This document shows positions 6,221-19,789 of a stretch of DNA of 22,079 bases, one piece after another. This DNA is from Bodo saltans. Lineage: Eukaryota > Euglenozoa > Kinetoplastea > Eubodonida > Bodonidae. Each line of letters begins with the position of its first letter. Positions within the stretch are counted from its first letter, which is position 1. A program made the translations under genes and the position numbers. The notes under the pieces were generated by a model. It ran no database searches. It saw only the letters and a program-made list of their open reading frames with translations, and was not told the DNA's origin. The DNA lies in contig CYKH01001927.1 of NCBI GenBank assembly GCA_001460835.1, positions 5,825 to 27,903 on the forward strand. Reading direction: 5' to 3'.

Positions 6221-6583
6221 CTTGTACCGTCTTGGAGGAAACTCACCTGCTCCGCATTATCAACAAAGTATTTACTCATGCGATGCTACAAGCGGTGGCG
6301 TGGGCGTCCTCATCATCACACAACACGTTCCTCAATTCATTTTTCATCTTCACAACGATATTTTTGGTTTCTCATTTTAGAGACCCTTACATACTTCCTG
6401 CAATTCCAGTTTCGCTCAACCCTAACTGATTGCCTTTCCTTTTCTTTTCTTTTTTTGAAGATTCAGCGCAAGGGATTTGAAGGGATATCTCTTGATAAAA
6501 GAAACCATCCAGGACTTCGGCGCCGCAATAACCGCAGATTTTATCACAGACCACTTCACAAAAAAAAAATTCACAAGAAAAAT
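6221..6583 (+). other. Intergenic region: 3' UTR, splice acceptor and 5' UTR
   Basis: No supported gene lies here. The second half has a strong pyrimidine tract at about 6432-6457, with AGs at 6459-6460 and 6465-6466. From there to the ATG at 6584 no other ATG occurs, giving a clean 5' UTR of roughly 118-124 nt that ends in an A-rich stretch. Confidence 0.6.
6432..6466 (+). promoter_or_regulatory. Putative trans-splice acceptor for the RCC1-like gene
   Basis: A nearly unbroken C/T tract (6432-6457) is followed directly by GAAG and ATTCAG, giving AGs at 6460 and 6466. The first ATG downstream is that of the RCC1-like gene at 6584, which decides its start against in-frame ATGs further upstream. 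Confidence 0.65.
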
Positions 6584-8557
6584 ATGTACGTTTGGGGCAA
6601 CACAAACTTTCAAACCAGCGCGGTCTCGATGAGCGGCGGTCTCAAGTTCCCCACGCGTGCACCCGTATTTCCTAGCGGTCACAACACCGACGCAGCTGCG
6701 CGAAACGAATACCTCGTTTCCCACGCAGGTTTTCCATCTGGCGCTGTGTCGTCACACGCCTCCGGCATCAACCACCACCTTCTTATTATCGGCGGTGTTC
6801 TCTACGGCTTCGGTTCTAATCACCAAAATCAACTGGGTTCGGGTATTGCCACGTACGCTGCCACGGTACGTGCCGTGCCATTCCGTGGTCGCAGCGCCCC
6901 AGTGGAAGTTGCTTGTGGCCGCCGCCATTCTCTCATTCGCACTGCGGACGGAATGGTGTACACAGCCGGAGATAATACCCATGGACAACTAGGGAGGTCG
7001 CTGGGGAAGCAGGCTGGTGGCAAGCAGCAGTCTGCCCCTGTCAACAGCGCGATGCTCGATTTTGCCGAAGTTGCCCTCGGAGGTGTTGTGCAAATCTCAG
7101 CGGCAGAAAACTCTTCATTTGCATTGACTGACAAAGGAGCGTTGTACTCCTGGGGCTTCCAAGCATCTGGCCATCTTGGCCACGGTGATAGAGGCGAGGG
7201 CATGCTGCAAACGGACAAGGGCGGAGAAGTGATGGGCAACGCTACCGTAGATCGGCCCACGCATGTCCGCTGGTTCACGGAAAAGCGTGTCAAGCTGGTT
7301 CAAATCTCTGCAGGAAAAGAGCACCTCGTGGCTCGCAGCGAGACGGACGTGTACACAATGGGCGAAGGTTTCTACGGAAAACTTGGCACCAACGATGTGT
7401 CTGTGGTGTTCTTCCCTCATCGTGTGTCGTTTCCTGCCCGCAAAACTCCGGAGAGACTTGTGAGCGTTGCTGCCGGGAATAACCACACGCTGGTGCTGAA
7501 GCACAGCGGTGAGATGGGTTCCGTTATGTACCACTTTGGTCAAGTCAGCGGTGATACCGGCAGCCTCAGCGCAGTCGTGGTGGAGTCGCCGTACAATGAC
7601 ATTTCCAGAGTATTTGCTGGAAACTACTGCTCCATGGCTGCTGTGACGGAGGACGGCACGCTTCTCGTGTGGGGGGATTATGGGCCATTGTCCAACGGTG
7701 TCCCGAAGCTCGCAGCCCGCACCTCTCGACAAGTACCTGCTCCCGTCAAGGCGCTCGGAGATTTCCACGTTGTCTCCTTCTGCTCCTCGGGATCCACGAT
7801 CCTCGTGTTCACCGACGACAGCAAAGCCAGCCCTGTTCGAACTCAGCCACACGCCACGAAAGGATCTCCCGTCAAGACCATCCATCTCATTGACAATGAA
7901 GAAGAAGTGGACGCCACCGCCACTCAAAAGATATCAGACGTGTCCTCGTCGAACGAAGGCAACATCGAGGAGGGGCTCGTGAGGTACCACACCGCGTTCG
8001 ACACGATCATTCCTATCGCCGATCGTGCAGGAGCCCACACGGCGGTTGATAACTTCGATCAAGCCCGCCAAGAGTTTTACACTCGTTGGATGGGAGATGC
8101 TGAGGGTATGGCATACTTCAACAGTATTCCTGTGGCGCTGGAGGAAGTGCGAGCACAGAAGGTCATCGCCAAGAAAGGTGTTCACGGACTGCGAGCAGGG
8201 GACAAGGTGCGCCTCTGGATGACGGATGTCTACGCGCTTGCCGTCGTTGGAGAGCAGCCGGCGGGACTTGTTGTTGCTGGTGGCGGTGGCTCTTCATCGC
8301 AGCTTTCATCACAGCAAGCAACGAGCGACAACCTCCTCACGCAGCCTTTGGCGTCTGTGGATGGAGATGATGCTGACAAAGACAATATCATTCACGGAAA
8401 AGGTCGTCCTGTCTATCTAGAGTGGATGCGAGATGATTGGGTGCCTGAGGAGGTGGAGCTCTACAGTGACGACGAAACGCAAAACGAAGAAAATCCAAAC
8501 CGCTGGCAGAGCGTTTGGTTTGTGGAAGCTCCTACTAATGGCACGGTGGGGGTGTAA
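6584..8557 (+). CDS. RCC1-repeat beta-propeller protein with C-terminal extension
   Basis: The protein has 657 residues from the first ATG after the splice acceptor. RCC1-type blades are visible at about residues 65-100 (GVLYGFGSNHQNQLGSG), 106-160 (EVACGRRHSLI, TAGDNTHGQLG), 168-230 (ISAAENSSFAL, SWGFQASGHLGHG), 236-285 (ISAGKEHLVA, MGEGFYGKLG), 291-335 (VAAGNNHTLVL, HFGQVSG) and 340-390 (FAGNYCSMAAV, LVWGDYG). The N-terminal MYVWGN probably closes a seventh blade with residues 394-412, the velcro seen in RCC1 folds. Residues 420-500 are linker and helix. At 534-625 the pattern GLRAGDKVRLW, VYLEW and DDWVPEEVELY suggests an SH3/Tudor-like barrel split by a Gly/Ser insert. RCC1 proteins can be Ran exchange factors, ubiquitin-ligase parts or chromatin binders. 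No HECT, RING or kinase domain is present, so the role is open. An in-frame extension to 6278 exists but lies upstream of the splice site. Confidence 0.88.
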   Translation: MYVWGNTNFQTSAVSMSGGLKFPTRAPVFPSGHNTDAAARNEYLVSHAGFPSGAVSSHASGINHHLLIIGGVLYGFGSNHQNQLGSGIATYAATVRAVPFRGRSAPVEVACGRRHSLIRTADGMVYTAGDNTHGQLGRSLGKQAGGKQQSAPVNSAMLDFAEVALGGVVQISAAENSSFALTDKGALYSWGFQASGHLGHGDRGEGMLQTDKGGEVMGNATVDRPTHVRWFTEKRVKLVQISAGKEHLVARSETDVYTMGEGFYGKLGTNDVSVVFFPHRVSFPARKTPERLVSVAAGNNHTLVLKHSGEMGSVMYHFGQVSGDTGSLSAVVVESPYNDISRVFAGNYCSMAAVTEDGTLLVWGDYGPLSNGVPKLAARTSRQVPAPVKALGDFHVVSFCSSGSTILVFTDDSKASPVRTQPHATKGSPVKTIHLIDNEEEVDATATQKISDVSSSNEGNIEEGLVRYHTAFDTIIPIADRAGAHTAVDNFDQARQEFYTRWMGDAEGMAYFNSIPVALEEVRAQKVIAKKGVHGLRAGDKVRLWMTDVYALAVVGEQPAGLVVAGGGGSSSQLSSQQATSDNLLTQPLASVDGDDADKDNIIHGKGRPVYLEWMRDDWVPEEVELYSDDETQNEENPNRWQSVWFVEAPTNGTVGV

Positions 8558-8762: not shown

Positions 8763-8799
8763 TCTTTCACTTGTCGTTGTTGTTTTCGCTCCGTTGCAG
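8763..8799 (+). promoter_or_regulatory. Putative trans-splice acceptor for the NACHT gene
   Basis: A T/C/G-rich, A-poor stretch (TTGTCGTTGTTGTTTTCGCT and flanks) ends in the CAG at 8797-8799. It lies 41 nt before the ATG at 8841 and no other ATG intervenes. The rest of the 283-base gap from 8558 is A-rich 3' UTR, including five CAA repeats plus CAG at 8613-8630. Confidence 0.6.
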
Positions 8800-8840
8800 A
8801 AAATTCTTGTAGATATCGTAGCATAATTTTCTGTCACAAC

Positions 8841-11800
8841 ATGTCCCGTCGCCTCGCAGGGGCCGTCCAGGACGGTAACGCACAGTTCCGCGTCACGCAG
8901 ATGTGCAACACCCTTCAGGACGCCGTCATGAACGGCGATCAGCAGAACCGCATGGCAATGCTCAAACAGCTCCTCGCCGTCGACCTCAACGACGCCGAGA
9001 TCGACCAGCCGCTGCTCATTTTCGAGATTCTGCTCCAGACGCTGGCCATGCCCAAGGCCGCCGACTTGGACTGCAACAACCGCGTGGAGATTGCGACCCA
9101 CGCCTCACGCTACCTCACCATCTTCTTCGTGCGGTGCGGCGACCGCGTGACCATCAGTCTCCACCGCTTCCCCGTACCCTGGTGTGGCGCTCACCTTAAT
9201 CCAAGCCGCCGCCACGCTGTCGCTCTCGAACCTCGCAGACGCCGCGATCGAAGCGCTGAAGGTCATCGCCGCGGATCTCGTTGATCGCGCCATCCAGATG
9301 CTCGAAGGCGAGCTGCTGTCGCGTCTTGCTGCACTCGACCTGCTTCGCGTGGCGCCGAGCCTAGCACGCTTGAGCGAGGCGCTCGAGGAGAAGGGCGTCG
9401 ACTCGGATGAAATCGATGTCCCGGAGTTTGACGTGGACGACACCATCGAGACGCTTGCCGCGACGCTCCCTAACTCTGTCGATGTTTATTGGATGCACGG
9501 GTACGCGCTGATGGACACGCTCATGGCCTTGTGCAAACTAGGCATGAGTGTTCAGCGTATCTCCGTCGTGCTGTTTGGTGGACGCGAAGGAGCCTTCGAC
9601 CCGAAGAACAAGTCCTGCATTGCCGCCTACTGCGCCCATGGAGCTGGGTTCTTCGACTCCCTCAACCCGCTCAGCAACAACTGGCGCATTCGCGAAAAGG
9701 CCGTCAGCTGCCTTATCGCAGCCCAGAAGCAGACAAAGAACAAGGGGCTGCGCGCCGCCATCGCCTCTGTTCTTGCCGACCGCCGCATGCTCGAGAAGGA
9801 CAAACGCGTGTCCCTCATTCTGAACGCCCCTGAGCTGGTGACCGAGTTCAACGAGGTGCTGAAGAAGGACTGGCAGGAGCGGTCCGATGTGTACCTGACT
9901 GCCATCGGCGAGCTGAATGCAAAGATCTCCGAGATGATGGGCAAGGCGGAGCAGACAACGGACGAGAGCGAGCGCGTCGAGACGCAGCAGCAGATCGCCG
10001 AGGCGCGAGAGTACTTATCGACAATGATGGAACGAATGACGGACGTCTCGACGCAGCTTGGCAAGCTCGACACCATCAACGACAAGCTGACCGAGTTCCG
10101 CGAAGAGCACGCGAAGCAGTGGCAGAAGTTCGAGCAGCGCTTCGGTGCGGAGATGGCGCGGCTGGAGCAGCGCCGCGAGGCGGACCAGGCGGCCGTGATG
10201 GGCAAACTCGACCAGATCCACGCGATGATGGCGGCGATGCAGGCGGGCGGCGGCAGCAACGCTGAACCGGTGCTGCAGCTCGAGGAGATCGTTGCGAAGC
10301 TCAAGGCGCAGTACCGCGACCAGGAGCTCGACATGGTCATGACAAAGGACCGCATCCCGCTCGAGAAGATCTTCATCCAGCTGGCCGTCGTTGAGTCGAA
10401 CATCGGCGGCAAGCTGTCCGAGGACACAAAGCGCCACGCCGTACCTCTCGCGCAGATGTTCCGTGAGCGCAAACGACGCCTTGTCAAGAAGGTGCTCATC
10501 GTCGGCAAGGCGGGTGTCGGCAAGACCACGCTGTGCAAGAAGTTCACCTTCGACTGGGCCACCGGCGCGCTGTGGCCGCAGTTCCGCTTCGTCTTCGTGC
10601 TCAAGTTCCGCAACGTCAACCGGCAGCGCTACGCGCAGCCCGACGAGCAGCACCTCGCGCACGCGCTCGTTCGCGAGCAGCTCAGCGACCGCGGCGTCGA
10701 GCACACGTCGGCGCTGTTGACCGCCGTGCGCGACATCCTCAAGAACCACCTCGAAGAAACGCTCATCGTGTGCGACGGCTACGACGAGTCCACCGACACG
10801 CCGCCGTCGATCATCGACGACCTGTTCCGCTGCCCCAACGTCATCTTCACGTCGCGCCCGTACGGCATCGAGCAGATCGTCAACCGCTTCGACCTGCACA
10901 TCGAGAACATCGGCTTCACGCCGGTGCACATCAAGGAGTACGTGCGCATGTTCTTCGAGGCACTGCAGGGCGGGCCGGAGGGCGCTTCTGCCGCCAGGGC
11001 CCTCATCACATTCCTCGACACAAATCCCAACATTCTTGTCACGTCCACCGTGCCCGTCAACCTGCAGCTCGTCTGCAGCCTCTACCTCCGACAGCGCGAC
11101 GTATTCGTGGGTGGGCACATCAGCATCGGCTCGCTCTACAACAAGCTCGTCGAGTACCTCATTGAGGGCTACTTCGAACGCGAAGGCGTCGCGGATCCCG
11201 CTGCCATGGACCAAGCCGTGCGGCGCACGTGCGGCAAGATCGCGTTCGAGGGCCTCAACAACAGCCACGTGGTGCTGCCGAATCGGCTGCTGACGGCTGC
11301 TGTGCTCGAAGAGCCGCTGTTCGAAAAGAAGCTGGTGAATCTGTTCACCGTCGGCCTCATCAAGCCAGCGATCGAAGGCAAGCACGTGCCCCTGTGGAAG
11401 CAGGACGGCTTCTTCCTGCACCTCACGTTCCAGGAGTTCTTCGCGGCGACGTGGCTTGCGGCGCACATGTCGACCGCGGAGCGCCACGCGTGGCTGCGCG
11501 CCAACAAGTTCACGCCGCGCCTCAGCCTCACCATCTGCTTCACGATGAGCATCCTGATGATCGAGGGGCGCACCGACGAGATCGTCGACGCGTTTGGCGC
11601 GATCATGGAGGCGCCGGTGGACGAGGCGCGCCTAGTGCAGTCGCTGCTCGTGCTCCGCGCCTTCGACGAGCTGTCCGTTGCGGTGATCCGTAGGGTCGAA
11701 GATGCGACGAAGGCAGCGTCGTTTGCGATGCGGCTGATGGGCGACGTCATCCGGCGCGGCGAGTCGGACGCAGTTGGCCACGTTGCGGACTTCATGGAGA

Positions 11801-14800
11801 GCACGTCGCTCATCACCGGCGCGCCGGAGATCGCGGGCTCCCTCGACGCCGTCCTTGGCGACCCGAGGAGCAGCGACGCCGCCTCGCGCGTCCTCCTTGC
11901 GATGGGCAAGTACTACCCCACCCACCCCGTCACGCTGCGCGCGTACGTCGCGTCCCTCGGCCTCTTCCAAGAGGCGGGAACACCCAAACAGATTCGCACG
12001 ATCGTCGGAGCCGCGGTGTCCAGCGGGAAGATGGAGCGGTTTGTGAGCCTTGTGCGTCATCACCGCGACGACAAAGCAGTGTTCGAGTACATCCTCACCA
12101 CTGCTGCCAAGTCAACACTTCTCATCCTCGGGCTAATGAAGCCACTCCTTGTTGGTGCGTCGATACACCGTGACATGCGAGCTGCTGCACTTATCCGCGA
12201 CACGCTTGCGCGGAACACGACCACCACTCTCGAGCAGCACGTGTACTATGACGAGACTGATGACTGGCAAGCGCGTTTCGAGTCCCGCGCAAGTGGCACG
12301 ATCGTTGACAGCGGCGCGGCGGACCCTTTTGCGAGCCGGCGGCAGGAGTGGGAGTCTAAACCCTCCGTAGTGCCGAAGCTAGACTTCGTCAACGACGTCA
12401 TTCTCCGCGAGGTTCTTGACGCCTTTGGTCGTGAACGGAATCCGTCCATGCAAAAAGCGTTGTTGAAGGTTGTCGGCCCTGACGCTGCGCTCAAAGAAAT
12501 TGAGCAGGCATGGACTGCTCTCGGTGATGATGCGCTCGACGAGGCACTCATCCGTGTCCATTTCGAGCACCACTTCGACGATGGCGACAACAGCTTCGTG
12601 TCGCGCTGCATCGCATGCCGCATGGAAGGCTTCACGGCGTCTGAGGGGCTGCGGCAGTACTGGAGCTTTTTTGTGTGCCACGACGCGCTCTCGTCCTCGT
12701 GGACCTCGGTGCAGAAACACTGTCCTCCCGCTCTTGCCCAGTGGCTTGTAGCGCAAGTACTCCGCAAGCTAGACCGCATCGTTGGTCTCAGTCGAGCCCC
12801 TGCTACTGCTCTCATCGAAGAGCTGTCAAACGTGTTCACGAGCCCTCGCGATGCCTGCGACGACGCGGCGGCTCTTGCCTACACTAATCTCCTCGACGCA
12901 TCCCACCGCCTGCGCTCGTTGCTCACGGAAATATGTGGCCCAGAAGAGGTGGCTGCCCGCTTAGAGCGCCTCTCAGCGGCGGCTCCTACCCCCAACCACG
13001 CCCTTGCTCTCAAGTATCAAATGTGGGTGGTGTGGTGCAGCGAGTTCAACGACCGCGACACACTTCCTGGCGTTGTCGCAACACTCACCGAGCTCAACGA
13101 TGCCTTCCAATACCGAAAAGCCGCTCCTCGCTCCGATCCGAACGATGAGCTCGACCCGGAGCTTCGATTGACGCGCTCCAATGCAGATCGATGGTCAATG
13201 TTTATCGAATTGTTGTCGATGCCAGTCGCCAGCCACACCGCTGTGACGGAACACGACCTCCGGATAGTGTATCTTGGCCTGATCATCCGCCGAGACCCAC
13301 GAGTCCTTGACGGGTTTGGTAACGATGAGAGCGCAGGACGGCTGCTTAAGAAAGTGGAAAGTATTCTCGTAAAGCACCCACAGTGGCACGGCTCGTTTCG
13401 CGTTTGGAGAGGGCACGCTGCGCGATACAGGCAACGAAATGAAAGGAGCGACATTGGGTCGGGGGCATGTGGCCAGTGCCGAGCAGTCATTCGACGGCAC
13501 TGGTCACACCAAACTCAGAGACTGCCAGTTGCCGGACTTCTCCGTGTTAACGCATTACGTCCTCAGCTCATTCCCCGGCTGCTCGACATGGCCCAGCACA
13601 AGGAGCTCACCAACACAGCAATGCAGTTGCTGTTTGACGGCAATGTCTCGCCGCTCGAGGCCAGATCGATTCTGCTGCGCATCGTCGAGATTGTCCCTCG
13701 CCTTGGGGGCTTTGTCGGGTTCACCGGAACAAACTACCTTCACCGCGTGGCCTTCTCGCTCCATCATCAACATTCGAACCATCTCGAGGTAACAGCCGTT
13801 CTTGACAACGCCCAGTCGAGTCGTTCGATGATCCTTCGCTCGTTTGCGAAAGAGATCGCGCCTCCTTTGGCATGGAATCCAGAGGCGGGGCCGATAGCTG
13901 TGGACCACTACACCGCAGCGGTTGCCACCTCCCTAGATCAGCCGCTTGCCTTCATTCAGAAGCAGCTCATCGACGCCATCCAGAGCCAAGACGAACTACT
14001 GCAGACAGCACTGGCAACTGCTGCCGGCCGCTTGTGCGAGCAGAGCGCTCATCTTCTCGACACCTTAGCCACTGAGGCCCCTCTGGCCTCGCTGTTTGTA
14101 CTTCCTGCCTTGTCGAAGACGTGGCGCTCAGACAGGAAGCTGCACCGAACTGCCATCACTCAGTACCAGCGCGTTGTCGCCTCATCCACCGTGGCAGAGA
14201 GGCAAGCAACTACGTCCAACGTATCACTGGTGTTCGATGTGGATGACGACGGCACGACTAACGAACCAGCAGAGTCAAGCAATCTTAATCACGAAAACGA
14301 CGACGATGAGGACGCTCCAAAAGAAGCGAACAATGAGGAGAGCGAGCTTAAGTCGTTTCCGTTCCTGAGAGCTGTTGCAATCCAACTTTACGGTGGACCT
14401 TCGATCAAGGCCGACGCAAAACTGTCGAACATCAGCGAGCTGCTGCCGCTGATCTCAATGTCGACCTCGGATCTTTTTCACACTCTGTTGACTTTTCTTG
14501 CCGCCGAAGGAATGGAGGGCACCCTTGTCCAGACGTTTGATGACATCAATGAACAGCACTGGTTCTTCTTTGAGAATTCGCCGGACCGGAAACTCCCTGA
14601 TGAATGCTTTCCGTTGTGGATCTCAGCCCTCGCCCATCCAAATTTAGGGGATCAAAAGTTGCACATGGGCGCGAAGGTGTTGACGGATGCAATGCTTCGG
14701 AAGAATGCTCCGTTGCTCAATCGACTGATGGCAGCAGCTGGCGAGGTTGAGGACAGCAATACCCTCGCCGCCCTCGTTGAAGCAGTTCCAGAACTACTGG

Positions 14801-17800
14801 CAACGCTGACAACCTTTCTAAACTCTCGTAATACGGATGTGATCTTCAATGCAGCAAAGACAACTCAGAAGTGGGACTTGTTGCTCTTGATGTCTCCTAG
14901 TTGCTTCAAACACACCCCTCTGACGGTGGCGGCGTTGCCTCGGGTTGCAGGCGGCGAAGACGTTATTACGCTTGAAGATTCGTTGGTGTGCCTTGACGCC
15001 GCCCCTGCACTGGTTTCGGAGTGGAGTGTGCGAGGAATTGGACGATCTGCGTTCCTCGCGCTGATGCCGGTAGGCTGCGATGCCGCCGGTTTTTCCGTGG
15101 GGAGGGATCCCGCCGTTTTTCCCTATGTGGTCCGTGCTCTCGCGCAGATGCTCGCCGATGACAATTCAGAAGAAGCAAAGCAAAACTTCATGGTGAACCT
15201 TCAAGCGAACCGAGCGCTCTGTACTGCAATGAGCGACTTGGCCAAGCGCGGCGGCGGGACGAACGTGACTGCTGAGGCAACGAGAGCCGATGGTGCTGGC
15301 ATGCTTCCTACCCTCAGCACAAAGCACCTGTCGATGCTGTTCAACGAGTCTAGTGCCCCCGAATGGCGTGAGTGGCCCGATGTGGCCCCTCCACTTTCCC
15401 GCGACCACGGCAACCCAGACCTCTTCGCGTTGCTTGCTGAGCCCTTCTCCCTCACCTCCATCATTCACCGCTACGCAGTCATTGCGCGGCAACGGGCCTC
15501 CAACTTCCTGCACATCTCGCAGGACTACGTGAAAGGAATACAGAGCATTAAACATCATCTCTCGAACGGGACTGTCTATCGCTCAGATGATAATGCAGAC
15601 GTGGTTGACAACAAGGACGACGATGACGACGACTACGACGACGACGACGACGATGGCGTCATCGAAGAACTCCTTCATCCTCAGCTGCTTCCCGGCGACG
15701 ATCACTTCTACGCGGTGTACATCGTGGAGCTATTCTGCAAGGCGTACGGCCTCATGCTGTGTGATAAGTGCATCACGATGATGAAAACGCCAGGAAATGT
15801 TGTAGAGCAGAACCTCGGCACACGCTTCGCAGCCTCGGATGTCTTGCCTGTGCTGTTTTCAAAAGCGTGCTCATCCTGCACCGGGCAGCTCGGTCAAATC
15901 TTAACGTCCATTAGAAAAACGCCGATGGAACCATCATTTCACGTCATTCAGCGATTCTTTGAATCTTGGGCTCTCAACGAGCCTGCCACGTTGCACCGAT
16001 TTATTCTCTCGCATATTGAGAAGCTGAAGAACGCCCTGCGCAGCAAAGACACGCCATCTGCTGCCGAACTCGTTGAGCAGCTCAGCAGCGTTGCGGACAG
16101 CTTTGACAACGTGCGCGATGTTGAAGGAGCATCATCGCAAAGCGCTGCAGGGGGAGGAAGACAGCAGCAAAATTGGAAGTTATGGTACAACAGCATCCTC
16201 ACCGTCGCCAACAAAGCGCCGCCAAGCATCGAGGTGGACTATCGCGCAACGTTGTTTTGGCTTTTCCGCGACGTCATGAACAGCAACTATCTCGGCGCTG
16301 ACGGCGTGGCACTCGCAACGTCCAACGACCCCAGATTAGATCATTTCTTGCATTTCATTGCGAATGTTGTGTTCAAAACAGACGCCTTGTCAGAAATGAT
16401 CTCCGCGTCCGTCGCCGACTCCCCAGAAACAGCGCGTCGCCTCGTTGAGAGAATGATTGCTATTGACGCTGCATCTGCGTACAATGCAACCTCGACGTTT
16501 ATTGACCAAGAGCAAGGTACCAACGAAATTGACTTCGAGGAGGAGAACCATATGCTCATGTACCAGCTTGTTGATCGCCCCGAGTTCGATGTCGAAGATA
16601 TTCCGTTGCCGACTGGGGAGGGCATTGTCGTCGACCTTTCGCCAGAGATTGTCAAGAAAATGAAAGAAAACGGCGCAGAAGTCACTTGGGATTTGGTGAT
16701 GAACAAAGCCGTTTCCATCGCGCACAACAGTGGCACCAAGCAAATGCTCAATGAATTGCGATCGTATTCCAGCCCACCACAGGCAGTCATGCACGTCATG
16801 GAAACAGTTGCAGCGCTTATTTTGCGCCAACCAGTGACAGGCTGGGTCCTCGTGCGGCGTGCGCTTCAAGACACAAATACCTTCCTTAGTCGCTTCACAG
16901 ATCCTACATTTGTCACACTAGCACTTGCCACCGCCAGCATTCCGTCATCATTTGCTCGCTTCCATAGACCTGGAAACGTTGCGAGCTTCGGAAAATTGAT
17001 TGAAGACTTGGCGGATTGGTGCGATTTGGTCCACAAGTATTGCACCAAAACAATGGAGCTTATCGACGCTCGACGCCGGGCCATTGAAATCGCCTCTCAA
17101 GGCGCCATACAGCTTAGAAAAGTGAAAGAGTCGTTGTACCGCATCATTGACCTACCTGATGGCTATCTTGACTTCATTCGGGACTCCACACGAGCCGCTC
17201 AAATCGACGCTGCAACAAAAGCTGCTGATTTGTTGAACAAAGCCGCGACAACATTTTTAAAGAATCAGTGCTCCAGTGAATGGAAGTCCTTTCTTGCGGG
17301 TCCACTTAACCCACCAAAAGGTCTCCAGCACATCGCGACAATTCTTGCCAAGATTTTCTGTGGACGGCACATCAAAGTTTGGTCGTCTCTGCGTATTTTC
17401 CTGATGGGTATTTCTGTGTCCGAATACCTTGGTCAGCATTCCGTTGGTAAGTTCTACTCCGAATCCATGATGTTGTTTCTGAAACAAGAACTCGATTCCG
17501 ACGAGTGGAAGTCCAGTGTCGCTGAATCGGAAGGCGTGTTGCAGTTTCCTAACCACATTGATCGCATTCTGCGCCAAGTGTTACATTACTGGGAGCAGGC
17601 CGAGCCTCTCCTATCGTACCATCGCCAAGAAGTCGACGACAAGCAGCAACGCAAGCTGAAGGAGCGAGAAGAGAAACGAAATCAGCGAGTCAACACGTTG
17701 ATGTACAGCATGTGGATATGGCCTGTGGCGCCGGAAGACTTCAGGCAGCGTCAAGTGAACCTTTTCCCCATTCGCACCGTGCTTGATGCCGTCGCCAATG

Positions 17801-17967
17801 CCCACAAGGCCAACAAAACTCTCCTTGAAACGTGGTTGAAAGATGCGGCCGCCACTATCTGCAGGGCCCAGCAGCGTGCGTTAGTGTTCCACAAGGACAC
17901 TCCGAATGTATTTACATTCACAGAAGATAACGCTGTTGTTGAGTACACTGCTACTTTTGAAGTGTGA
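8841..17967 (+). CDS. Giant NACHT-type STAND ATPase (about 3,041 residues) with one frame change near the 5' end
   Basis: Translation from the ATG at 8841 (MSRRLAGAVQDGNAQF) runs helix-rich in one frame to about 9170, then continues in the +1 frame to the stop at 17965-17967. Omitting one C of the CCCC at 9171-9174 joins them smoothly (RF/PYPGVALTL). In joined numbering, residues 1-340 look like ARM/HEAT-type helices and 344-474 a long charged coiled coil. The NACHT core shows Walker A GKAGVGKT (555-562, Lys561), Walker B LIVCDGYDES (641-650; Asp645, Asp648, Glu649), sensor FTSRP (Arg672) and the late signature FLHLTFQEFFAATWLAAH near 858-875. Proteins with this core are ATP-driven oligomerising switches, such as NLRs, TEP1 and bacterial Avs. 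Residues 900-3041 are mostly helical with no recognised repeat family, broken by acidic linkers near 1798-1836 and 2255-2275 and ending in a charged helix near 2927-2953. An immune-like or scaffold role is inference. If the frame change is real and not bypassed, only a 2,927-residue frame from 9184, lacking an upstream ATG, remains. Confidence 0.85.
9165..9187 (+). other. Frame-change point in the NACHT gene (CCCC run)
   Basis: The frame from 8841 reads CGC TTC CCC GTA CCC TGG here and then turns Arg-rich until its stop at 9282-9284. The frame of the main ORF has a stop at 9148-9150 and is open from 9151. Sense therefore passes from one frame to the other between 9151 and 9184, most simply through one extra C in 9171-9174. 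It may be a sequencing or assembly error, a natural indel, or less likely +1 ribosomal frameshifting on CCC. Confidence 0.75.
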
Positions 17968-18346
17968 TTTCAAAGCATGACAGCGGTAGTTCATAATGCA
18001 ACAATCTCGTAGATCAATTCATATCCTTCTTTGCCCCCCAAAGCACACATGTCGCCCCCTCTCCCCCCATCACTGTAATTAGCTGCAGGTTTACACACGA
18101 CGTGCACCACCACTCGCCCCCACACAAACTAACTATTCATTTATACACGTCATATCGTCCTATTGGGAAGAAAAAAGTTCACACATTTTTCGTTGGATAT
18201 GATTTACTTTTCTCGTCGATTATTTTGCGTTTGTTTTTTTTTTTTCCTTTTCTTTTTTGTGTGTATTCGCTGCGGAATTTCATACAGAAGAGTTTCAAAC
18301 ATTAATTATCATTTCAACACATCACACAAAATTAATTATCAGGCAC
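17968..18346 (+). other. Intergenic region: 3' UTR and splice signals
   Basis: No supported gene. The first part is C- and A-rich, including C-runs at about 18032-18070. The second part is T-rich and carries the acceptor of the aldehyde dehydrogenase gene. Confidence 0.55.
18231..18287 (+). promoter_or_regulatory. Putative trans-splice acceptor for the aldehyde dehydrogenase gene
   Basis: A long pyrimidine tract with a run of twelve T (18234-18245) and CCTTTTCTTTTTT is followed by CATACAG, whose AG is at 18286-18287. The next ATG is at 18347, in frame with the enzyme, so the in-frame codons upstream to 18257 are not used. Confidence 0.65.
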
Positions 18347-19789
18347 ATGCAAATGATCTCAAACTTCATCAATGGAGCACTCGTCCCGGCAGTCTCCAAA
18401 GAATACATCGACGGGATCGAGCCCGCTACAGGCGCCGTATATTCCAAGATTCCCCGCTCACAGAAAGCAGACGTGGATGCCGCCGTAAGTGCAGCAGAGA
18501 ATGCATTCCCGTCGTGGAGCGCAACGCCAGCCGAAGTCCGCGCGAGTTTCCTGTTTCGCATCGCTGATTTACTCGAATCCCGGCTCGACGCTTTCGCACT
18601 AGCTGAATCTCGCGACCAAGGAAAAACTGTGACCACCGCCCGCACTGTTGACATTCCTCGTAGCATCGAAAACTTTCGTTTTTACGCCACATTTATCACT
18701 CAAATGGAAGAGATCACCGTTGAGAGCAAACAGTGCATTCACTTTGCACTCCGCAAACCGATTGGAGTGGTGGGCCTCGTCTCCCCGTGGAACTTGCCGC
18801 TTTACTTGGCGACCTGGAAGATTGCGCCAGCTATCGCATTCGGGAACACTTGTGTGATCAAGCCCTCTGAACTTACCCCAATGACGGTATTTTTGCTGTG
18901 CAGCGTGCTGCAAGAGGCGAAGCTCCCGCCGGGTGTCGTCAATGTTGTGCATGGATATGGTCCTGAATGCGGTCAAGCCATTGCCGAGCACCCTGGCATC
19001 CCAGCGATTTCCTTCACCGGTGGCACCGTCACAGGTAAACGACTTGCCAGCACCACCGCGCCGCTCCTCAAGAAATTATCTCTTGAGCTTGGTGGCAAGA
19101 ACGCCAATATTGTCTTCGAGGATTGCGACCTTGCAGATTGTGTTGCAACCTCCGTCAGATCGAGCTTCACAAACCAAGGCGAGATTTGTCTTTGTGGCTC
19201 TCGAATTCTCGTCCAACGATCGGTGTACGCCTCATTCCTCGAGCAATTCGTCGCTGCCACAAAGAAGTTTCAAGTTGGTGATCCCCAGGACGCCTCTAGC
19301 AACATGGGGGCGTTGATCAGCAAGGCACATCTTGAGAAGGTGATGTCGTATATTCAAATTGCAAAGGACGAGGGCGGCACAATTGTGCTTGGCGGTGAAC
19401 GACCTACGAAGCTGTCCGCAAGATGTCGTGAGGGTTTCTTTCTACTGCCCACCATTATCACCGGTCTACCGCCATCAGCACGGTGCAACCAAGAAGAAAT
19501 CTTCGGCCCTGTCGTCACTGTGATTCCCTTCGACACTGAGGAGGAGGCGATTCGGATCGCCAACGGCACGCAGTACGGTCTATCTGCGACCGTGTGGACA
19601 GGCAACGCAAAGCGTGCGAATCGAGTCAGCCAGCAGTTGGACACCGGCTACGTGTGGGTGAATTGCTGGTTGATTCGAGACTTGAGAATGCCGTTTGGCG
19701 GGGTGAAGGCAAGCGGCATTGGAAGAGAGGGGGGAAAATTCGCAATGGACTTCTACACAGAAGTGAAGACAGTATGCAGCAAGCTGTAG
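18347..19789 (+). CDS. Aldehyde dehydrogenase, ALDH8/2-aminomuconate semialdehyde dehydrogenase-like
   Basis: This is a full-length 480-residue NAD(P)-dependent aldehyde dehydrogenase, oxidising an aldehyde to the carboxylate. Visible landmarks are SPWNLPL with the oxyanion-hole Asn149, cofactor-binding Lys172 in KPSELTP, the SFTGGTVTGK turn (222-231), general base Glu247 in LELGGKN, nucleophile Cys281 in NQGEIC, and EEIFGPV (383-389). The C-terminal VWVNCWLIRDLRMPFGGVKASGIGREGG region (436-463) is the style of ALDH8A1 and bacterial 2-aminomuconate or 2-hydroxymuconate semialdehyde dehydrogenases. Those enzymes act in tryptophan/kynurenine breakdown or meta-cleavage of aromatics, and Arg444 in WLIRD may contact an acidic substrate. 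The subgroup is less certain than the family. Two in-frame ATGs (18347 and 18353) are close, and the first is chosen. No targeting peptide is evident, so it is probably cytosolic. No pathway partner lies nearby. Confidence 0.93.
   Translation: MQMISNFINGALVPAVSKEYIDGIEPATGAVYSKIPRSQKADVDAAVSAAENAFPSWSATPAEVRASFLFRIADLLESRLDAFALAESRDQGKTVTTARTVDIPRSIENFRFYATFITQMEEITVESKQCIHFALRKPIGVVGLVSPWNLPLYLATWKIAPAIAFGNTCVIKPSELTPMTVFLLCSVLQEAKLPPGVVNVVHGYGPECGQAIAEHPGIPAISFTGGTVTGKRLASTTAPLLKKLSLELGGKNANIVFEDCDLADCVATSVRSSFTNQGEICLCGSRILVQRSVYASFLEQFVAATKKFQVGDPQDASSNMGALISKAHLEKVMSYIQIAKDEGGTIVLGGERPTKLSARCREGFFLLPTIITGLPPSARCNQEEIFGPVVTVIPFDTEEEAIRIANGTQYGLSATVWTGNAKRANRVSQQLDTGYVWVNCWLIRDLRMPFGGVKASGIGREGGKFAMDFYTEVKTVCSKL

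Follow-up and report, generated by a model that had tools for sequence, protein, structure and literature searches.

A giant NACHT STAND protein with an NLR-type switch module encoded in the genome of Bodo saltans

The window examined here, a stretch of 22,079 nucleotides from Bodo saltans that forms the end of contig C766 in the assembly searched, carries one very large gene, and the question that it raises is what kind of protein this gene specifies, where its switch module came from and what it may do for the cell. An earlier note, made from the nucleotide letters, had placed a complete NACHT core at 10250..11700 of the window, within a giant protein of a probable kinetoplastid. The assignment of the window protein to the NACHT/STAND class is confirmed by both its sequence profile and its predicted fold. 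The assembly that was searched comprises 29.3 Mb in 934 contigs and, because it is smaller than the published assembly of this species (39.9 Mb in 2,402 scaffolds; PMC4728078), all gene counts given here are lower bounds. The elements of the module are listed below, with residue numbers counted from the start of the main frame (9151).

10279..11670, plus strand: NLR-type switch module, consisting of nucleotide-binding domain (NBD), HD1, winged helix (WHD) and HD2 (AlphaFold2 model)
10492..10962, plus strand: NACHT domain PF05729 (Pfam 62.2 bits, cut-off 26.7, E 7.1e-17, residues 448-604)
10504..10530, plus strand: Walker A GKAGVGKTT (G455, G457 and K458 invariant in 36 rows)
10762..10788, plus strand: Walker B LIVCDGYDE (D542, D545 and E546 invariant)
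10846-10860, plus strand: sensor FTSRP (its R invariant)
11413..11454, plus strand: winged-helix signature FLHLTFQEFFAATW with the conserved His (F755, H757, L758, F760, Q761 and E762 invariant)

The Walker A motif, the Walker B motif with DGYDE, the SRP sensor and the late signature that the earlier note had named were all located, and all of them share one reading frame; the ends of the module agree with the interval that had been proposed. An alignment of the window protein with 35 bacterial relatives contains 17 invariant columns, including those of the winged-helix F.HL.FQE. The window protein thus scores higher than the curated cut-off of the profile and also contains the Walker A, Walker B and sensor motifs, the features by which NACHT/STAND NTPases are recognised. 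Membership in another P-loop class was rejected, as the AAA models score far lower (the runner-up, AAA_16, reached 28.8 bits, under its own cut-off) and NB-ARC (PF00931), the corresponding domain of plant NLRs, has no match at E 0.1. A chance occurrence of the motifs is likewise excluded by the E-value of 7e-17 and the full module fold. The predicted fold supports the same class and has the NBD-HD1-WHD-HD2 order with a winged-helix His that marks the animal-type NLRs, which the module resembles rather than TEP1. Although this switch is also that of NOD2, NLRP3, NLRC4 and NAIP, animal NLR chains show only 15-21% identity to the module in structural alignments, and the window protein, at about 3,000 residues, has a helical tail in place of leucine-rich repeats (LRRs) and no CARD, PYD or BIR domain by Pfam. 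Searches for LRRs and for the customary N-terminal domains found neither, and we therefore class it as a STAND protein of the NACHT family that has the full NLR-type switch between unusual flanking regions, and not as an NLR proper. The two flanking regions are the following.

9829..10245, plus strand: long helical/coiled-coil segment, with helices at residues 227-268 and 272-365 (AlphaFold2, pLDDT 64-89 at residues 231-360)
11671..17964, plus strand: C-terminal region of about 2,100 residues, a proposed solenoid sensor (helical where modelled; no Pfam family above cut-off)

The first of these bears out the helical and coiled-coil segments that had been described before the NACHT domain, and it includes a modelled helix of 94 residues. 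No Pfam family was found above cut-off in this segment, and neither residues 1-433 nor the 5' part of the gene matched a CARD, PYD, BIR, death or TIR domain at E 5. The structural model and the fold comparison reach approximately residue 1,030-1,050, residues 1051-1800 lying outside the model. Helical hairpins were predicted at residues 841-1050 (AlphaFold2, pLDDT 36-73), and a separate single-sequence model of the final 1,138 residues was also helical, with a pLDDT of 39, which is too low for use. At E 0.1, Pfam matched neither LRRs nor WD40 propellers anywhere in the window protein, and the same library detects LRRs in five paralogues. A search for HEAT or ankyrin repeats after HD2 yielded no repeat family above cut-off, the tail being helical where modelled, by a weak model. 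The tail also contains a run of aspartates (DDDDDDYDDDDDDG) at 15616-15657.

Concerning the relatives of this protein, its use as a query against the same assembly identified one further locus only, on contig C820, whose product is 25% identical to it over 422 residues and shares no N- or C-terminal region with it. The C820 protein has a NACHT match above cut-off, an NLRC4_HD2 match below cut-off and, like the window gene, a GC-rich core. An alignment of these two proteins was used in one scan of prokaryote genomes, which returned 63 loci with E-values that are relative to the candidate stretches only. Forty of these loci have E<=1e-20 and, by record title, comprise 20 from Chlamydiae, six from Rickettsiales (including two Midichloriaceae and one endosymbiont of the euglenozoan Peranema), eight from other Proteobacteria (one of them a Legionella), three from Campylobacterota, two from Verrucomicrobia and one unclassified; they are not independent, because seven come from one Chlamydiae genome and six from one Parachlamydiaceae genome. 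A NACHT domain was present in all 31 open reading frames (ORFs) scanned, out of 64 found, and the same 31 contained HEAT_2 in 17, NLRC4_HD2 in seven, a trypsin-like domain in seven and Ank_2 in five. A joint profile of the bacterial relatives detects NLRP3 at 164 bits. Among the sequences fetched, these bacterial proteins are the closest to the window module (up to 147 bits, top identity 31%). In these proteins, too, the module precedes a tail of repeats (L021-L063), but they are mostly shorter, at about 1,000-2,150 codons with several ended by contig ends, and in many of them Pfam recognises the HEAT or ankyrin tail, whereas that of the window protein is unrecognised. One scan of a viral collection produced a single weak relative (L084, 24% identity).

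For the C820 protein (L017:6342-9344), Rickettsiales proteins match better than the other proteins of its own genome that were compared. Its similarity to a protein from a Rickettsia endosymbiont extends over the module (32.6% over 506 residues) and to 58 N-terminal residues at 48%, and on these comparisons C820 is a candidate for transfer between symbiont and protist. A NACHT ATPase gene has been described in Rickettsia felis, with a pseudogene in other Rickettsia genomes (PMC4316617). The best-match ORFs in R. tamurae (L062) and R. australis (L082) have only 366 and 52 codons, which is consistent with decay there.

The relationships among these modules were examined in a careful tree of 55 rows and a quick tree of 59 rows. 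In the 55-row tree, C820 grouped with four Rickettsiales rows with support of 100/99, and in the quick tree the window protein joined eight rows of one Chlamydiae genome with support of 84. A single clade was rejected for the window protein and C820 (p 0.006), and also for these two together with six Bodo rows of the LRR family described below (p 0.003). We read the window protein and C820 as having separate histories and, as far as sequence comparisons go, the bacterial connection appears firm for C820 and likely for the window protein. Because the two have different bacterial neighbours, transfer probably happened more than one time. The opposite course of events is vertical descent from an old eukaryotic NACHT protein shared with animal NLRs, with later copying into intracellular bacteria from their hosts. 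The bacteria with close relatives are in many cases host-associated and could be such recipients, and a clade of the window protein with NLRP3 was not rejected (p 0.26); however, one clade of all eukaryote rows of the tree was rejected (p 0.005, with one animal row and with groups named after the first tree) and, within the same limits, so were C820 with the LRR family (p 0.020) and, marginally, C820 with NLRP3 (p 0.044). We regard vertical descent as rather unlikely.

A further question is whether the gene is intact. Its layout is as follows.

8771..8840, plus strand: probable trans-splice acceptor and 5' untranslated region (pyrimidine-rich tract, AG at 8799, 41 bases to the ATG), a role which we presume from kinetoplastid gene structure
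8841..9170, plus strand: 5' coding part of about 110 codons in a frame that differs from the main ORF (codon usage, third-position GC)
9151..17967, plus strand: main ORF, open for 2,938 codons and present once in the assembly searched

The start codon of the gene is the ATG at 8841 and its stop is at 17967, and the 2,938 codons together with the approximately 110 upstream in the other frame account for the size of about 3,000 residues that had been given for the protein. The 5' part scores +41.4 nats by codon usage in its own frame versus -79.3 and -81.1 in the other two, and its third-position GC is 0.84-0.92. Codon usage locates the frame switch at 9156-9185, the main frame being favoured downstream of about 9170. 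The break may be due to an assembly slip, a real mutation or some other cause. The few GT-AG pairs near the junction, inspected by hand and with no scripted search, included none of a length fitting an intron.

The base composition of the gene is also uneven. Its third-position GC is 0.82-1.0 at main-frame codons 180-960 and 0.48-0.78 thereafter, and that of C820 is 1.00 at codons 180-420 and 0.35-0.63 beyond codon 540 (60-codon bins). The extreme values, up to 1.00, lie at window 9151-12030 and at L017:6342-8000, with genome-level values in the tails. Paralogues of the LRR family have 0.45-0.71 throughout (300-codon bins), the median over 28 long ORFs, some of which are perhaps not genes, is 0.545, and among whole genes only one for flagellar-rod protein, at 0.86, and the shorter one for KMP11, at 0.88, approach the GC-rich core. 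Both the contrast between core and tail in the two genes and the frame break would suit a decaying chimera, in which a horizontally acquired module was recently fused to host sequence and is not yet, or no longer, functional, as would the bacterial nearest relatives among the sequences fetched. However, all 2,938 codons are open and every switch residue is kept, and a single small shift of frame could be a mistake of the draft assembly. Further, the GC-rich core is not a signature of the 24 bacterial relatives examined, because their ORF GC is only 0.23-0.45, and its origin from a donor of this kind is ruled out for the relatives found. A decaying chimera is, in our judgment, quite improbable.

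The largest ORFs of the window are all on one strand and comprise two in which no Pfam family passes its cut-off, an RCC1-like gene, the NACHT gene, an aldehyde dehydrogenase gene and one more that likewise has no family above cut-off. The neighbours of the NACHT gene, an RCC1-repeat protein at 6221-8557 and the aldehyde dehydrogenase at 18203-19789, are both ordinary by Pfam, and pyrimidine-rich tracts precede the ATGs of the NACHT and dehydrogenase genes. We consider bacterial contamination unlikely in view of the one-strand ORFs, these neighbours, the pyrimidine tracts and a base composition unlike that of the 24 relatives. The reading of the source as a probable kinetoplastid is supported at the genome level by one KMP11 match at 178 bits and nine matches to the flagellar-rod protein, families which we take to be typical of kinetoplastids and their kin. 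Neither family had a match in 14 control genomes which, being prokaryotic as far as named, are uninformative about other eukaryotes. The long intronless frames and the pyrimidine tracts before ATGs also fit a kinetoplastid. A spliced-leader pattern (34 places, two mismatches) had no match in the contigs searched, which counts little against this origin because the tandem arrays may be missing from those contigs.

The window gene belongs to a wider set of NACHT genes in this genome. A NACHT search of the assembly gave nine matches, and a query with the protein on contig C178 gave NACHT-region matches on 12 contigs (C178, C109, C620, C355, C745, C647, C379, C331, C436, C373, C326 and C377), with a thirteenth, C57, matching in its N-terminal part only. 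LRRs were recognised by Pfam in five of these contigs (C331, C178, C745, C620 and C355), the match extended into the LRR part on four more (C647, C379, C373 and C326), and no LRR was seen in the C178 match on C109 and C436. Internal stops interrupt the match on three of the 13 contigs (C109, C379 and C436), and more copies appear split across frames. The C377 protein (L018:751-9999 with L019) has 3,431 residues and an end similar to bacterial NACHT ankyrin tails. A NACHT-WD40 gene on C136, at L010:2047-5781, is separate from the window gene, and an overlapping frame there holds further WD40-like repeats. Altogether, at least 15 NACHT loci are present in the assembly, whether intact or damaged, and their tails are of several types (loci of the multi-copy family: L011-L020 and L097-L103); a count of paralogues in this genome, as had been proposed, finds only C820 to be of the window gene's type. 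Animal and fungal NLR sets have a similar mixed-tail layout. The NACHT-LRR family resembles the window gene in carrying a NACHT switch in long proteins, but it differs in being multi-copy and in having an LRR tail and a conserved N-terminal domain, and the window protein showed no blastp similarity at E 1e-4 to the members compared. This N-terminal domain, roughly 200 residues long and helical in appearance (L013:3839-4501 with nine homologous stretches in alignment A5), matched Pfam MLKL_N in two of 10 members, with a best E of 0.026 under the cut-off and unrelated families scoring similarly or better, and a profile search of the PDB with it returned three unrelated chains only, at E 0.47 or worse. 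An MLKL-like N-terminus of these paralogues is accordingly a lead only; if real, it would be an executioner domain of the cell-death type.

With regard to function, we consider it somewhat better than an even bet that the window gene specifies a giant cytosolic NLR-type STAND ATPase, in which the tail senses, the module switches and the N-terminus signals or scaffolds, and whose bacterial kinship involves transfer. In the resting state, NACHT-HD1-WHD-HD2 would be closed around ADP, with H757 touching the nucleotide. Binding of a ligand, most plausibly from an intracellular bacterium or virus or from cell damage, to the helical tail would free the module, ADP would be swapped for ATP, and copies would form a ring via the NACHT domain, whereupon the N-terminal helical/coiled-coil part would pass the signal on or build a scaffold. 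The ADP/ATP cycle and NACHT-driven assembly are established in NLR biochemistry. The switch module would share descent with the NACHT proteins of bacteria, many of them from intracellular groups. Avs and other antiphage NACHT proteins likewise join a STAND/NACHT switch to a long sensor tail, but none of the Avs models of PADLOC matched the window protein at E 0.01 (the sole hits being AbiLi and mad8, near 15 bits), and no effector domain was recognised in it. An immune role is plausible, and candidate triggers exist because Bodo saltans reportedly harbours Paracaedibacter-assigned endosymbionts as well as a giant virus that belongs to the Mimiviridae (PMC8061765).

Several observations weigh against this proposal. 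In the tail, no repeat family passes any cut-off and the model ceases to be usable past about residue 1050, Pfam recognised no effector domain at the N-terminus, and the frame break means that the gene could be damaged. The window gene is single-copy in the assembly searched, and pathogen sensors are often expanded. The motifs of the bacterial scan came from the window gene and C820, and the bacterial set is therefore biased toward look-alikes. The window protein groups in the 55-row tree with the seven retained rows of that one Chlamydiae genome, with support of only 70/82, and its clades with NLRP3 and with the Bodo LRR family (p 0.14) were not rejected; the groups for these tests were chosen with the first tree already known, and the p-values of the seven tests are uncorrected. 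The phylogeny with Avs, NLR and TEP1 that the earlier note had suggested was realised in part, with one animal NLR row included, Avs and TEP1 left out, no row for C136, and long branches.

The main rival is a scaffold or housekeeping protein, i.e., a nucleotide-gated assembly switch of a cytoskeletal, flagellar or ribonucleoprotein complex and not a pathogen sensor; TEP1 and nephrocystin-type NACHT proteins are thought to act in this manner. A single-copy gene for a very large protein, with a coiled coil beside a helical tail and no recognised effector domain, would be in keeping with such a role, and the third-position GC of its core is like that of the genes for flagellar-rod protein and KMP11, which are abundant proteins. 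Against this, the module matches NLRs and bacterial NACHT-repeat proteins (NPHP3_N scores 13.9 bits, under cut-off), and the genome holds several NACHT genes with varied repeat tails. Although TEP1/NWD-type proteins also carry NACHT in a very large eukaryotic protein, the window protein has neither a WD40 propeller nor a TEP1 domain, and the WD40 type of this genome is the separate gene on C136. A scaffold role is unlikely on balance, and we continue to favour the NLR-type sensor.

Immune receptors that combine NACHT with LRRs are usually treated as an animal invention that is convergent with the plant NB-LRRs. A survey of choanoflagellates, which reports proteins bearing NACHT together with LRR but without death or CARD domains, considers that NLRs may be animal innovations (PMC6040629), and the LRR regions of green-algal NLRs have been proposed as derived from Kinetoplastida (PMC7145615). 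The earlier description of such proteins as little known holds for the literature that pairs NACHT with kinetoplastid terms: among the matches listed, from sources with subscription journals and preprints outside their coverage, no title or abstract describes kinetoplastid NACHT or NLR-like proteins. The main text of the Bodo saltans genome paper is without the words NACHT or NLR (PMC4728078), and PMC9816063 has no occurrence of NACHT, NLR, HEAT repeat or ankyrin. We tentatively suggest, with a little less than even confidence, that free-living kinetoplastids hold an NLR-like innate sensing repertoire, consisting of a NACHT family on at least 12 contigs (with LRR tails recognised or matched in nine), a NACHT-WD40 gene and two NACHT genes of another type, and that two or more NACHT modules have passed between them and intracellular bacteria such as Rickettsiales and Chlamydiae. 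If this is true, kinetoplastids would have evolved the NACHT-LRR architecture separately from animals, and a single-celled predator would deploy NLR-type switches in defence against the symbionts that it harbours or against its giant virus. The presence of NACHT-LRR, NACHT-WD40 and giant helical-tail NACHT proteins in a kinetoplastid would extend NLR-like repertoires to a very remote branch of the eukaryotes and, with this repertoire linked to the NACHT proteins of intracellular bacteria, the origin and the direction of the exchange would become testable.
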